Made by a program: the position numbers and the translations under genes
Notes under the pieces: model-generated
Database searches by the model: none
Seen by the model: the letters and a program-made list of their open reading frames with translations, nothing else
Told to the model about the DNA's origin: nothing
Source: Candidatus Tectimicrobiota bacterium
GTDB taxonomy: Bacteria; Tectomicrobia; Entotheonellia; Entotheonellales; Entotheonellaceae
Assembly (NCBI GenBank): GCA_026005175.1
Contig: BPKO01000003.1
Coordinates: forward strand, 186,001 to 250,000
Direction of reading: 5' to 3'
Length of the DNA: 64,000 bases
Shown: positions 58,329 through 64,000 of the stretch, one piece after another
How positions within the stretch are numbered: the first letter of the stretch is position 1
Layout of the letters: each line of letters starts with the position of its first letter

Positions 58329-59271
58329 ATGGCGGTAGGGTTGGTGTATCATCCTGATTTCCTCAAACACGACACCGGTCCGCGCCATCCCGAGCGCGCC
58401 AGCCGGCTCGAAGCCATTCTGCGCGCCCTGGAAGCAAACGGGCCGGCAGTGCAGCGCCTGGCGCTGCCCGAGGACCTTGACGCCCTTTTCTGGATTGCCC
58501 AAGTGCACCATCGCCAGCACATCGAGCGCGTGCAAGCGGCCTGCCAGCGCGCCATGGCCGCCCTCGACCCCGACACCGTGGTCTGCCGCGACTCTTTTGC
58601 GGTGGCCCTGCGCGCCGTGGCCGCTGCCCTCGCTGCCGCCGACGCCGTGCTGGGCGGGCAGGTAGCGCAGGCGTTCTGTGCCGTGCGTCCTCCCGGCCAC
58701 CACGCCGAAGTCGACCGTGCCATGGGTTTTTGCCTGTTTAACACCGTGGCCATTTTGGCCCGCTACCTGCAGCGGCGGCACGGGCTGGAGAACATTTTGA
58801 TCGTCGACTGGGACGTGCACCACGGCAACGGCACGCAGCACATTTTCGAGGAAGACCCGAGCGTTTTCTACTTTAGCGTGCACCAGTACCCGTGGTATCC
58901 GGGCACGGGGGCGGCCACGGAAACCGGAGTGGGGCGCGGCAAAGGCTACACCCTTAACGTGCCGCTGCCGGCGGGCAGCGGCGACGACGTCTACCGCGAG
59001 GTCTTTCTCCACCGGCTGCGGGCCACGTGCCCTGGCCTACCGCCCCGACTGCGTGCTCATCTCGGCCGGCTTCGACGCCCACGCCGCCGATCCCCTGGCG
59101 CAGATGCGGGTCACAGAGGCCGGCTTTCGCTTCATGACCCAGGTGGTGCGCGAAATCGCCGAGGCCTGCTGCCAGCAGCGCATCATCTCCGTGCTCGAAG
59201 GAGGATACCACCTGGAAGCCCTGGGGCGCAGCGTCGTCGCGCACCTTGAGGCCCTGCAGCAAGCGGCGTAA
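58329..59271 (+). CDS. Histone deacetylase-family (acetylpolyamine/acetoin-type) hydrolase (one-base frameshift)
   Basis: Read as one gene of about 313 codons. It is a zinc-dependent deacetylase with 'HPERASRLEAILRALEANGP', 'AVRPPGHHAEVDRAMGFCLF', the zinc-binding 'LIVDWDVHHGNGTQHIFEED', and, after the frame change, 'VLISAGFDAHAADPLAQMRV' and 'ISVLEGGYHLEAL'. The frame breaks at the CCC run near 59031-59033; removing one C gives 'RATCLAYRPDCVLISAG'. Bacterial relatives act on acetylated lysines, polyamines or acetoin-like compounds. AGGAGG precedes the ATG at 58329. The last catalytic Asp and the Gly-Gly-Tyr lie in the second frame, so as printed the protein would be inactive. Confidence 0.87.
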
Positions 59272-60516: not shown

Positions 60517-60897
60517 ATGACCCGTTACTCCGACCTGGTGCAGGAACACTTCGAGCGCCCGCGCAACGTGGGAGAAATTCCCAACCCCGACGCCGAGGCG
60601 GTGGTCAGCAACCCGGCCTGCGGCGACACCATGCACCTTTACTTGCGGATCGAGGGCGACCGCATCGTCGAGGCCAAGTTCAAGACCATGGGCTGCCCGG
60701 CGGCGATTGCCGCCAGCTCGGTCACCACGGAAATGCTCATCGGCCGCCGCATCGAAGAGGCCTTGGCCATCACCCGCGCCGAGGTGAGCGCCGCCCTGGG
60801 CGGCCTCAGCCCCCAGAAAGTCCACTGCTCGGTGCTTTCCGAAGACGCCATCAAAGCCGCCTTGCGCCGCTATCGCCCTCGCCAAACGGAGGGCTAG
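60517..60897 (+). CDS. iscU: Iron-sulfur cluster scaffold IscU/NifU N-terminal type
   Basis: A 126-residue scaffold with the three conserved Cys: Cys35 in 'SNPACGDTMHLYLR', one in 'FKTMGCPAAIAASSV' and one in 'KVHCSVLSEDAIKAAL'. The Asp next to the first Cys is present. It receives sulfur from NifS and builds 2Fe-2S or 4Fe-4S clusters, as needed by the adjacent nuo genes. TAGGAGG precedes the ATG. Its TAG stop shares the tetranucleotide CTAG with the convergent nuoD stop. Confidence 0.92.
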   Translation: MTRYSDLVQEHFERPRNVGEIPNPDAEAVVSNPACGDTMHLYLRIEGDRIVEAKFKTMGCPAAIAASSVTTEMLIGRRIEEALAITRAEVSAALGGLSPQKVHCSVLSEDAIKAALRRYRPRQTEG

Positions 60898-62051
60898 CGG
60901 TCGATTTCACCCAGCACGATGTCGAGGCTGCCGACGATGGCCACCGCGTCGGCGATGAGGCCGCCGCGGCCGATGGCGTCGATGGCGCTGATGGCGGTAA
61001 AGCAAGGCGAGCGCCCCTTGCAACGCAGGGGCTTTTCCGAGCCGTCGCTGACGATGTAGAAGCCGATTTCGCCGCGCGGCGACTCGGTGCGCATAAACGC
61101 GTCGCCTTCAGGAGGGCGCACGCGCCGGGGCATCGCCTCGTTGGGGTCGCCACCGGGCAGCTGGTCGAGGGCCTGGCGCAGGATCTTGATCGACTCGAGC
61201 ATTTCCCGCACCCGCACCATGTAGCGATCCCAGGCCGCCCCCAGCGTCCCGAACTCCCCGGTGCCCACCGGCACGTCAAAGTCAAAGCGGTCGTAAATAC
61301 AGTAGGGCTCTTCCTTGCGCAGGTCCCAGCGCACCCCGCTGCCGCGCAGGTTGGGTCCCCCTACCCCGTAGCTGATGGCCACGTCGGGGGGCAAGACGCC
61401 GATGTTGGCGGTGCGCTCGATGAAGATCTGGTTGAACGACAAGAGGTCGTTGAGCTCCTTTACCCGCGGCTCGAAGTAGTCGAGGAACTCCATGGCCTTC
61501 TCGGCAAAGCCCGGCGGCAAGTCCTGCATCACCCCGCCGATCCACAGGTAGTTGTAGAGGAGCCGGGCGCCGCTGGCCCACTCAAAGAGGTCGAGGATCT
61601 TTTCCCGGTCGCGGAAGCACCACAGAAAGGGCGTCACCGCCCCGGTATCCAGGCCGTAGGTGCCCACCGCCAGCAGATGGCTGGCAATGCGCTGAAACTC
61701 GGCCATGATGACGCGGATGTACTGCAGGCGCTCGGGCAAGTCGGTCAGCCCCATCAGCTTTTCCACCGTCAGCACGTAGCCCAGCTCCATGCTCATCGCC
61801 GCCACGTAGTCCATGCGGTCGACGTAGGGGATGACCTGGGGATACGTCATCGCCTCGGCGTGCTTTTCAAAGCAGCGGTGCAGGTAGCCAATGTGGGGGG
61901 TGATGCGCTTGATGAGCTCCCCGTCGGTTACCAGCTCCAGCCGCAACACGCCGTGCGTGCTCGGGTGCTGCGGCCCCATCTGCAAGATGAGGTCGTCCCC
62001 CTGCCGCTCGTAACTCAGGTGGTACTCTCCGGCAACCAGCTGCGTCACCAT
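60894..62051 (-). CDS. nuoD: NADH-quinone oxidoreductase subunit D
   Basis: A 385-residue 49-kDa-type subunit that lines the quinone pocket of complex I. It has 'MGPQHPSTHGVLRLELVTDG', the quinone-site His-containing 'PHIGYLHRCFEKHAEAMTYP', 'SHLLAVGTYGLDTGAVTPFL' and the C-terminal 'VAIVGSLDIVLGEIDR'. It is not fused to NuoC. The start lies 19 bp after the nuoI stop. In this cluster, nuoD follows nuoI instead of nuoC. Confidence 0.95.
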   Translation of the reverse strand: MVTQLVAGEYHLSYERQGDDLILQMGPQHPSTHGVLRLELVTDGELIKRITPHIGYLHRCFEKHAEAMTYPQVIPYVDRMDYVAAMSMELGYVLTVEKLMGLTDLPERLQYIRVIMAEFQRIASHLLAVGTYGLDTGAVTPFLWCFRDREKILDLFEWASGARLLYNYLWIGGVMQDLPPGFAEKAMEFLDYFEPRVKELNDLLSFNQIFIERTANIGVLPPDVAISYGVGGPNLRGSGVRWDLRKEEPYCIYDRFDFDVPVGTGEFGTLGAAWDRYMVRVREMLESIKILRQALDQLPGGDPNEAMPRRVRPPEGDAFMRTESPRGEIGFYIVSDGSEKPLRCKGRSPCFTAISAIDAIGRGGLIADAVAIVGSLDIVLGEIDR

Positions 62052-62070: not shown

Positions 62071-62607
62071 TCAGTTGGCCGCTACCGCCGCTTTCTTCTT
62101 GGTCTTCTTGGCGGCTTCTTCTTCCTCGAAGCGGCGCGCTTTTTCTTCGAGTTCCGGGATCTTTTCGGGCGGGATCTTGGCAAAGTGATAGATGAGGTCA
62201 AAGCGGTCAGGCGCCGCGTCTTCGTAACTCGGGGTCATGTAAATGCACTCGGTAGGGCAGGGAATGGTGCACAGGTTACAGTAGCAGCACTTGGCCATGT
62301 CGATGTCGAACTTGGTGACGTGAAAGCGCACTTTGTGGCCGGTGCTCGCCTCGCGCTCGTCTTCGGGGACGGCTTTGATCAAGTCGATGGTGATGCACTC
62401 CACCGGACAGGCCCGCTCGCACTGCCGGCAGCCGATGCAGTCGTCGATGTTGACAAACAGCTGCATGCGGGAGTTGGGCGGCAAGGTCCAGCGCTCGTCC
62501 GGGTACTGCACGGTCACCGCCGGGATGAAGAGGTGCCGCCACGTCAACCGCATGCCGACCAGGACCGTCCAGAAGGCATTCCAGATGTTGAGCAAGTATT
62601 GACGCAT
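62071..62607 (-). CDS. nuoI: NADH-quinone oxidoreductase subunit I
   Basis: A 178-residue ferredoxin-like subunit with two 4Fe-4S motifs, 'CIGCRQCERACPVECI' and 'CCYCNLCTIPCPTECI', which pass electrons toward cluster N2. The N-terminal helix anchors it to the membrane arm. The last 30 residues ('FEEEEAAKKTKKKAAVAAN') form a Lys/Ala-rich tail reminiscent of the NuoB extension. It sits between nuoC and nuoD, with short gaps and AAGGAAG before the ATG. Confidence 0.95.
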   Translation of the reverse strand: MRQYLLNIWNAFWTVLVGMRLTWRHLFIPAVTVQYPDERWTLPPNSRMQLFVNIDDCIGCRQCERACPVECITIDLIKAVPEDEREASTGHKVRFHVTKFDIDMAKCCYCNLCTIPCPTECIYMTPSYEDAAPDRFDLIYHFAKIPPEKIPELEEKARRFEEEEAAKKTKKKAAVAAN

Positions 62608-62622: not shown

Positions 62623-63159
62623 CTAAGGCTCCTGTTCTTGCGTGCGGTAGACCTCGAGCCCGGTCTGCGGCGGATCCCCCACGTACGGCACGCGCACGCC
62701 GTGGTAGAACTCCTGTACCTGGTAGTCTTTGAGCAACGGATGGCCTTCCCAGTCGTCGGGCAGGAGGATGCGGCGCAGATCGGGGTGGTGGGCAAAGCGA
62801 ATGCCAAAGAGATCGTACACCTCTCGCTCGTGCCACTCGGCGGTGCGCCAGATGTCGCAGACCGTCGGCACTTCTCCCCCCTGGCGGGGCACTTCCACTT
62901 TGAGCACGATCTTGTGGCGCCGGCTCATCGAAAAGAGGTGGTATACGACTTCCAGGTGCTTGCCAGGACCATAGTCGACGCCGCTCAGGCACATGAGGAG
63001 GTCGAACTGCAGCTGCGGATCGTGCCGCAGATACTCTGCTACCTCGTGGATGGCCGCAGCGGCCACCCGCACGCTGGGATCGACGGCCTTGGCGTTGAAG
63101 CCCAGGATCTGGTCGCCAAAGCGCTCCTGCAACCGCTGGTAGATCTCTTCGGCGGTCAT
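62623..63159 (-). CDS. nuoC: NADH-quinone oxidoreductase subunit C
   Basis: A 178-residue 30-kDa-type subunit with the signature 'RTAEWHEREVYDLFGIRFAH' and 'PDLRRILLPDDWEGHPLLKD'. It packs against NuoD in the peripheral arm of complex I. It is separate from NuoD. It lies 10 bp after the nuoB stop and 15 bp before nuoI. Confidence 0.95.
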   Translation of the reverse strand: MTAEEIYQRLQERFGDQILGFNAKAVDPSVRVAAAAIHEVAEYLRHDPQLQFDLLMCLSGVDYGPGKHLEVVYHLFSMSRRHKIVLKVEVPRQGGEVPTVCDIWRTAEWHEREVYDLFGIRFAHHPDLRRILLPDDWEGHPLLKDYQVQEFYHGVRVPYVGDPPQTGLEVYRTQEQEP

Positions 63160-63169
63160 CGCATTACCC

Positions 63170-64000
63170 CTAGGCCTCGCTGCCGCTTACCGGCTTGCCC
63201 GCCTTGGCGCGCATGGCGCGCGACTTGGCCCGCGCCACCAAAATCCGCTCTTCCTTCGTCAGCTCCTTAAACGGCTTGCGCAGCAGCTCCTCGGGCACCT
63301 CTGCCAGCGGGTCCACCGCCGCTTCCGCTGCCGGAGCCGCCGCCTCCGCAGGCGCCGCTTCGGCAACCGGCGCTTCCTCTTTTGCCGCCCGCGCCGGTGC
63401 GGTCTCGGCCTTGCTGGCCACCGGCACCCCCGCCTTGGCGCGCATGGCGCGCGACTTGGCCCGCGCCACCAAAATCCGCTCTTCCTTCGTCAGCTCCTTA
63501 AACGGCTTGCGCAGCAGCTCCTCGGGCACCTCTGCCAGCGGCTCCACCGCCGCTTCCGCTGCCGGAGCCGCCGCCTCCGCAGGCGCCGCTTCGGCAACCG
63601 GCGCTTCCTCTTGTGCCGCCCGCGCCGGTGCGGTCTCGGCCTTGCTGGCCACCGGCACCCCCGCCTTGGCGCGCATGGCGCGCGACTTGGCCCGCGCCAC
63701 CAAAATCCGCTCTTCTTTCGTCAGCTCCTTAAACGGCTTGCGCAGCAGCTCCTCGGGCACTTCCACGTCTTCGGCGGCGGCAGCCGGCGCTGCCACTTTC
63801 TCCGGAGCGGCTTTCTTGGGCGCCTCTTTCTTGGGAGCGGCTTTCTTGGGCGCCGCCTTGGCCGCCGCGGCCGCCGCCTTGGCCGCCAGCTGCGGCGCCG
63901 GGCGGATCAGCTTTTCCGGTTCCTTGGGGCGCACGCGGAAGGCGCCGACGCGGATCTTCTCTTGTAGCCTGAGGAACGCTTCCAGCAAGGCTTCAGGCCG
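63170..64000 (-). CDS. nuoB: NADH-quinone oxidoreductase subunit B, 3' part, with repeat extension (partial)
   Basis: The gene runs off the right edge, so only its last 276 codons are seen. The first visible residues, 'RPEALLEAFLRLQEKIR', are the conserved end of NuoB (after the last N2-cluster Cys in 'GCPPRPEALL', outside the window). NuoB normally ends shortly after this point. Here about 250 more residues follow: an Ala/Lys/Pro linker ('KAAPKKAAPKKEAPKKAAPE'), then three copies of 'VPEELLRKPFKELTKEERIL' plus 'VARAKSRAMRAKAG', separated by Ala/Glu/Pro-rich spacers. There are no Cys or membrane segments. The stop is 10 bp before nuoC. The extension's role is unknown. Confidence 0.85.
   Translation of the reverse strand, partial: RPEALLEAFLRLQEKIRVGAFRVRPKEPEKLIRPAPQLAAKAAAAAAKAAPKKAAPKKEAPKKAAPEKVAAPAAAAEDVEVPEELLRKPFKELTKEERILVARAKSRAMRAKAGVPVASKAETAPARAAQEEAPVAEAAPAEAAAPAAEAAVEPLAEVPEELLRKPFKELTKEERILVARAKSRAMRAKAGVPVASKAETAPARAAKEEAPVAEAAPAEAAAPAAEAAVDPLAEVPEELLRKPFKELTKEERILVARAKSRAMRAKAGKPVSGSEA
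63201..63770 (-). repeat. Tandem 231-bp coding repeat in nuoB extension
   Basis: Two complete 231-bp units (63201-63431 and 63432-63662) differ at only two positions by eye. A third copy (63663 to about 63764) has one difference before it diverges. Each unit encodes 77 residues: a 34-residue charged helix-like core plus an Ala/Glu/Pro-rich spacer. The period is a multiple of three, so copy-number change keeps the frame. Confidence 0.92.

Follow-up and report, generated by a model that had tools for sequence, protein, structure and literature searches.

A repeat-built C-terminal tail on NuoB in the Candidatus Entotheonella family, a possible docking arm for an electron donor

NuoB is a highly conserved core subunit of complex I, and yet the nuoB gene at the end of the DNA stretch studied here tolerates a C-terminal tail bigger than the subunit itself. 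What is this tail, is it real, and what may it do? The stretch (the window) covers 64,000 nucleotides, C3:186001-250000 (C3 being its contig), of a 3.99-Mb MAG that consists of 14 contigs. The original prediction, made from the letters of the window, was that NuoB ends normally and then continues in frame for about 250 residues with a linker and three core sequences, and this was confirmed by the open frame.

Anatomy of the tail and its reading frame

On the minus strand, the open frame 63170-64000 runs from PEALLEAFLRLQEKIR, the end of the last NuoB helix, directly into the tail, which consists of an Ala/Lys/Pro linker and three copies of EVPEELLRKPFKELTKEERILVARAKSRAMRAKAG and stops at TAG (63170-63172). 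The extension has about 258 residues and its module about 35. No stop codon separates the NuoB core from the tail, an observation that would have spoken against the prediction, and the frames of the relatives are intact. What the window shows of the NuoB body is its last part, residues 172-190 (63944..64000); intact relatives match Pfam Oxidored_q6. The gene starts at C3:250514, which corresponds to window position 64514, past the end of the window. The body is followed by a juxta-body strap, AFRVRPKEPEKLIRPAPQLAAK (residues 191-212, 63878..63943), with 73-91% amino-acid identity between genomes, and by a linker, L0 (residues 213-249, 63767..63877), which is basic and rich in Ala, Lys and Pro by composition and is predicted to be disordered. 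Module alignment, structure prediction and DNA comparison then define module 1 (residues 250-284, 63662..63766), module 2 (residues 327-361, 63431..63535) and module 3 (residues 404-438, 63200..63304). They are separated by two linkers of 42 residues each, L1 (residues 285-326, 63536..63661) and L2 (residues 362-403, 63305..63430), which are acidic and Ala/Pro-rich by composition, and the frame ends with GKPVSGSEA and the TAG stop (63170..63199). All these features lie on the minus strand.

At the DNA level, a repeat finder detected a 231-nt family with starts at 63189, 63420 and 63651. In the register 63189/63420, units 1 and 2 show five differences, three of which (63195-63197) lie at the C-terminal edge; in the register 63198/63429, they differ at 2 of 231 positions (63311 and 63382), which is exactly the number given in the original prediction. 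An antisense frame of 268 aa (63195-63998, plus strand) is also open over the entire repeat, probably because the coding strand is rich in G+C. Downstream of nuoB, on the same strand, come nuoC (178 aa, 62623..63159), nuoI (I1, 178 aa, 62071..62607) and nuoD (385 aa, 60894..62051; a Complex1_49kDa match was found in a relative). This NuoI has a short Glu/Lys/Ala-rich C-terminus of its own, EEKARRFEEEEAAKKTKKKAAVAAN, and a comparable Ala/Lys-rich end occurs in a related MAG (G001, see below).

The frame of nuoB is broken in this MAG only, by a run of eight G (G8) in the NuoB body at about window positions 64085-64092, beyond the window, where the frame needs G7. Read across this site, NuoB has 447 residues, and the tailed frames of three relatives are uninterrupted (447, 433 and 365 residues). 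The extra G may stem from assembly or sequencing, or may be a real lesion in this strain; an assembly error is probable, since the relatives are intact and a second gene of the MAG is also frame-shifted. The latter, a histone-deacetylase-like gene, switches frame near window position 59005 in comparison with its homologues in G001 and G002, another likely assembly indel. Given such errors in and near nuoB and a MAG that is 77% complete, one may suspect that the tail itself is an assembly artefact, as the original prediction had warned, with collapsed or duplicated repeats, or belongs to a pseudogene. This is highly improbable, because three independent assemblies, including two single-contig chromosomes, carry the same tail in an unbroken frame, and because the modules show selection. 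The artefact reading is thus refuted for the tail itself, though the exact copy number in the window's MAG may still differ.

Distribution, fold and evolution of the module

The tail was present in 4 of 4 genomes examined from the family, namely the window's genome, a MAG labelled Proteobacteria (G001, SXND01000200.1) and two closed single-contig chromosomes of uncultured Ca. Entotheonella (G002, OX639990.1; G003, OY282375.1). Entotheonella is a sponge-symbiont genus of the 'Tectomicrobia' lineage (PMC10227082). The evidence base is therefore four tailed genomes of one family, in which the tail is a genuine, conserved part of NuoB. A comparison of repeat number, which the original prediction had suggested, revealed variation from two to three: three modules in the window's genome, G001 and G002, and two in G003. 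The suggested search for the core in databases and related NuoB found it in NuoB of this family and nowhere else searched. Outside the family, no module was found in GTDB r220 contigs by a scan with exact short peptide patterns, which diverged modules could escape, and there were no credible relatives in phage records, viral contigs or 386 genomes sampled across the domain. One of these 386 genomes (G051) gave a weak match (E 0.0021) in an unrelated region, which is at chance level. Some other genomes have long NuoB frames, but these are open upstream and carry no C-terminal tail: their NuoB ends about 20-83 residues past the PGCPP motif, against about 270 in the tailed NuoB. The module is absent from G004, the sole genome examined from another family of the phylum. 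This says little on when the tail arose, since the one NuoB detected there, which is tail-less, is partial at a contig start and groups with a paralogue, B2, described below. In the literature on NuoB repeats or tails, we found nothing describing this tail.

The alignment of 11 module copies has 42 columns, of which 19 are invariant (V4, E7, L8, P12, F13, K14, L16, K18, E19, E20, V24, R26, A27, S29, R30, A31, R33, K35 and G37). All 11 copies have a net charge of +4, with +5 in the second half, and most inter-module linkers contain 7-10 D/E and 0-3 K/R (one has 5 D/E and 3 K/R). For the isolated module, AlphaFold predicted a short helix that is joined by a PFK turn to a second helix of 18 residues (mean pLDDT 81). 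Within the complete chain, all three modules took the same two-helix form (about 65-84) and the linkers stayed below 50; this model was used for the modules only, because its NuoB body was poor with only three sequences as input. Thus, the module is predicted to be a helix-turn-helix mini-domain with a strongly basic second helix. No part of the tail matched Pfam above the gathering score, and the sub-cut-off matches of the linkers (RcsF, HD_5 and others) were compositional, from low complexity. A PDB sequence search with the module gave a best E of 1.4, for an ATP synthase beta chain, and Foldseek a best E of 4. The likeness to F1-ATPase beta, which lies in the DELSEED stretch in the sequence search and returned in Foldseek at E 8-9, is at chance level and was set aside as no more than a lead; module residues 15-28 resemble this stretch locally (ELSEEDRLIVARAR versus ELTKEERILVARAK), not significantly. 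As no described repeat or domain family matched, the module appears to be previously undescribed.

How the copies arose can be read from their DNA. The three cores of the window's genome are 96-100% identical, versus about 70-76% to the cores of other genera, and so were recently duplicated or homogenised in this genome. The prediction of a recent duplication or gene conversion is supported in the sense of recent homogenisation. When G002 and G003 are compared, first core against first core and last against last, the identities are 84 and 89%, while the first and last core inside one genome are 78-79% identical. These copies are closer across genomes than within them and are thus older than the split of G002 and G003. 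In three genome pairs, pN/pS was 0.02-0.26 for the modules, 0.03-0.11 for the NuoB body and 0.31-0.69 for the inter-module linkers, values that are approximate due to few sites and to synonymous sites near saturation between genera but keep the same order in every pair. They indicate that the modules are under purifying selection and that the linkers drift.

The complex I of the tailed NuoB

The tailed protein has the hallmarks of NuoB. Oxidored_q6 was matched at 101-102 bits in the three intact relatives (gathering cut-off 27), and the N2-ligand cysteines C72, C73, C138 and C169, a CC pair and two single Cys, are invariant in the four genomes. Each genome also has a second, tail-less NuoB (B2). 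The best relatives of the tailed NuoB, at 64-78% identity, come from A-B-C-D-H-I-(J)-K-L-M-N operons that have no detected E, F or G genes. In the tree, in which several deeper forks are weak, the tailed clade (100/99) is nested among NuoB of 11-subunit-type operons (G101, G043 and G029), with B2 apart. From this nesting and identity, the tailed NuoB belongs by descent to the 11-subunit class of complex I without NuoEFG. For this class, the direct electron donor is an open question, and a docking platform for several donors has been proposed (PMC11238625).

The present complex may nevertheless have borrowed NuoG or EF. The genes of the tailed set are split into separate B-C-I-D and A-H-G-I' clusters, neither the B-C-I-D nor the A-H clusters contain nuoE or nuoF, and the one NuoG found per genome lies beside A1-H1 in the A-H-G-I' cluster of four family members. 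NuoE and NuoF are present elsewhere in the genomes, in a second set with the tail-less paralogues. In G002, a second complex I cluster (G002:C1:1948001-1968000) reads L-M-A-CD(fused)-E-F-H-J-K-N and then another J-K-L-M-N; the NuoB of this second set is an orphan gene about 1.1 Mb off, and the sole NuoG is in a third place. An outgroup genome, G161, carries F-G-H-I'-B-C-I-D in one run (C8:112001-130000) with both NuoI types, the B-C-I-D order of the tailed set and a NuoB frame of ordinary length (192 aa); it may represent an intermediate stage in the mixing of the two complex I types. Moreover, a 685-residue protein with nitrate-reductase-gamma-like, 4Fe-4S and CCG domains, similar to HdrDE, follows nuoG-nuoI' in G000, G001 and G002 and comes directly after nuoG in G004. 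It is possible that this protein is a redox partner of one of the complexes.

Possible roles of the tail and comparison with known systems

When NuoEFG is missing, NuoI is the electron-entry subunit. The C-terminal tail of NuoB would then start beside the entry site, where the side of NuoI that adjoins the NuoB C-terminus would be exposed. We tentatively regard the tail as a multivalent docking arm that extends from the peripheral arm and whose likeliest partner is an acidic electron donor; both the binding and the partner are inferred, and we hold this reading with less than even confidence. In such an arm, flexible Ala/Pro-rich linkers would hold two or three basic helix-turn-helix modules. 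Through avidity, these would catch an acidic soluble donor, in our preferred view a ferredoxin-like protein and otherwise an Fe-S/flavin dehydrogenase, and so concentrate it locally at NuoI. Conserved folded basic modules, drifting flexible linkers and a variable module number are what is expected of a docking arm. The earlier idea that the tail tethers partners fits this: the modules are selected and predicted to fold alone, the linkers are not selected, and there are two to three copies. Which partner is likely changes with the NuoEFG-less class of this NuoB, which the original prediction had missed. Against a donor, the tailed cluster comes with no candidate gene for one, the complex might still acquire an NADH module from the NuoE and NuoF elsewhere and the sole NuoG beside A1-H1, and other possible ligands of basic helices are lipids, nucleic acids and the acidic linkers of neighbouring tails. 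The broader proposal, that a NuoEFG-less complex I evolved a built-in 'fishing arm' on NuoB from a new module of about 35 residues for capturing its electron donor or donors, is more doubtful still. If it holds, the modules could serve as bait for the long-sought donor of NuoEFG-less enzymes: this lineage fused selected, repeated modules to the subunit next to the electron-entry side, and a module that can be made alone is a handle for fishing its partner.

In Escherichia coli, the C-terminal extension of NuoB is found on the outside of the peripheral arm, where it contacts NuoI (1095 A^2), NuoD and NuoF (PMC8357420), which weakens the premise of the original prediction that a tail on a buried NuoB is surprising. 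It also leads to the main rival, a stabilising strap like those of E. coli: the tail would run along its own peripheral arm and its modules would be packed against NuoC/D/I, in place of supernumerary subunits or of the absent NuoEFG. The C-terminal tails of E. coli NuoB, NuoI and NuoF do so, overlapping the positions of supernumerary subunits (PMC8357420), and the 22-residue stretch that directly follows the body shows good conservation here, as expected of a strap. However, two to three near-identical modules in variable number, on drifting linkers of about 40 residues, fit poorly to unique rigid sites, and the E. coli tails are extended, with a few helical turns at most and without repeats. 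We consider the strap unlikely.

The opposite charges within the tail, +4 modules and acidic inter-module linkers, together with its suitable multivalency, could instead mean that it joins one complex I to the next or to a different respiratory enzyme, by basic modules that bind the acidic linkers of adjacent tails or a common partner, and so may form clusters or arrays in the membrane. Freely drifting linkers are odd for a binding surface, though charge alone could suffice, and this proposal seems improbable to us. The Arg/Lys-rich second helix and the Ala/Lys/Pro linker, similar in composition to histone-H1-like tails, would also suit non-specific binding of lipids or nucleic acids by basic amphipathic helices, with the tail as a membrane anchor or of no important role. 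We give this little credence: particular residues (V, E, L, P, F, K, L, KEE, V, RA, SRA, R, K and G) are invariant beyond charge, and purifying selection on the modules speaks against the absence of a role.

Compared with NuoB (PSST/Nqo6) of the 11-subunit enzymes, its closest relatives, the tailed NuoB shares Oxidored_q6 and the N2 ligand cysteines including the tandem pair, and differs in the long tail with two to three modules and in having its genes in at least two clusters. The E. coli NuoB extension is a 25-residue, extended and repeat-free segment, in contrast to repeat modules on linkers, and inspection by eye showed nothing in its end that recalls the modules. NdhS and other ferredoxin-docking subunits serve the photosynthetic NDH-1, an EFG-less complex I that takes electrons from ferredoxin; the function may be shared with the NuoB tail only by analogy, and these are separate folded subunits in place of a repeat tail on NuoB. 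In 2-oxo-acid dehydrogenase E2 chains and CsoS2-type scaffolds, small modules are carried on flexible Ala/Pro-rich or disordered linkers. The NuoB tail has no Pfam match to a lipoyl or peripheral-subunit-binding domain up to E 10 and no significant likeness to any solved chain, and its resemblance to these proteins is an analogy in layout, that of modules on linkers.
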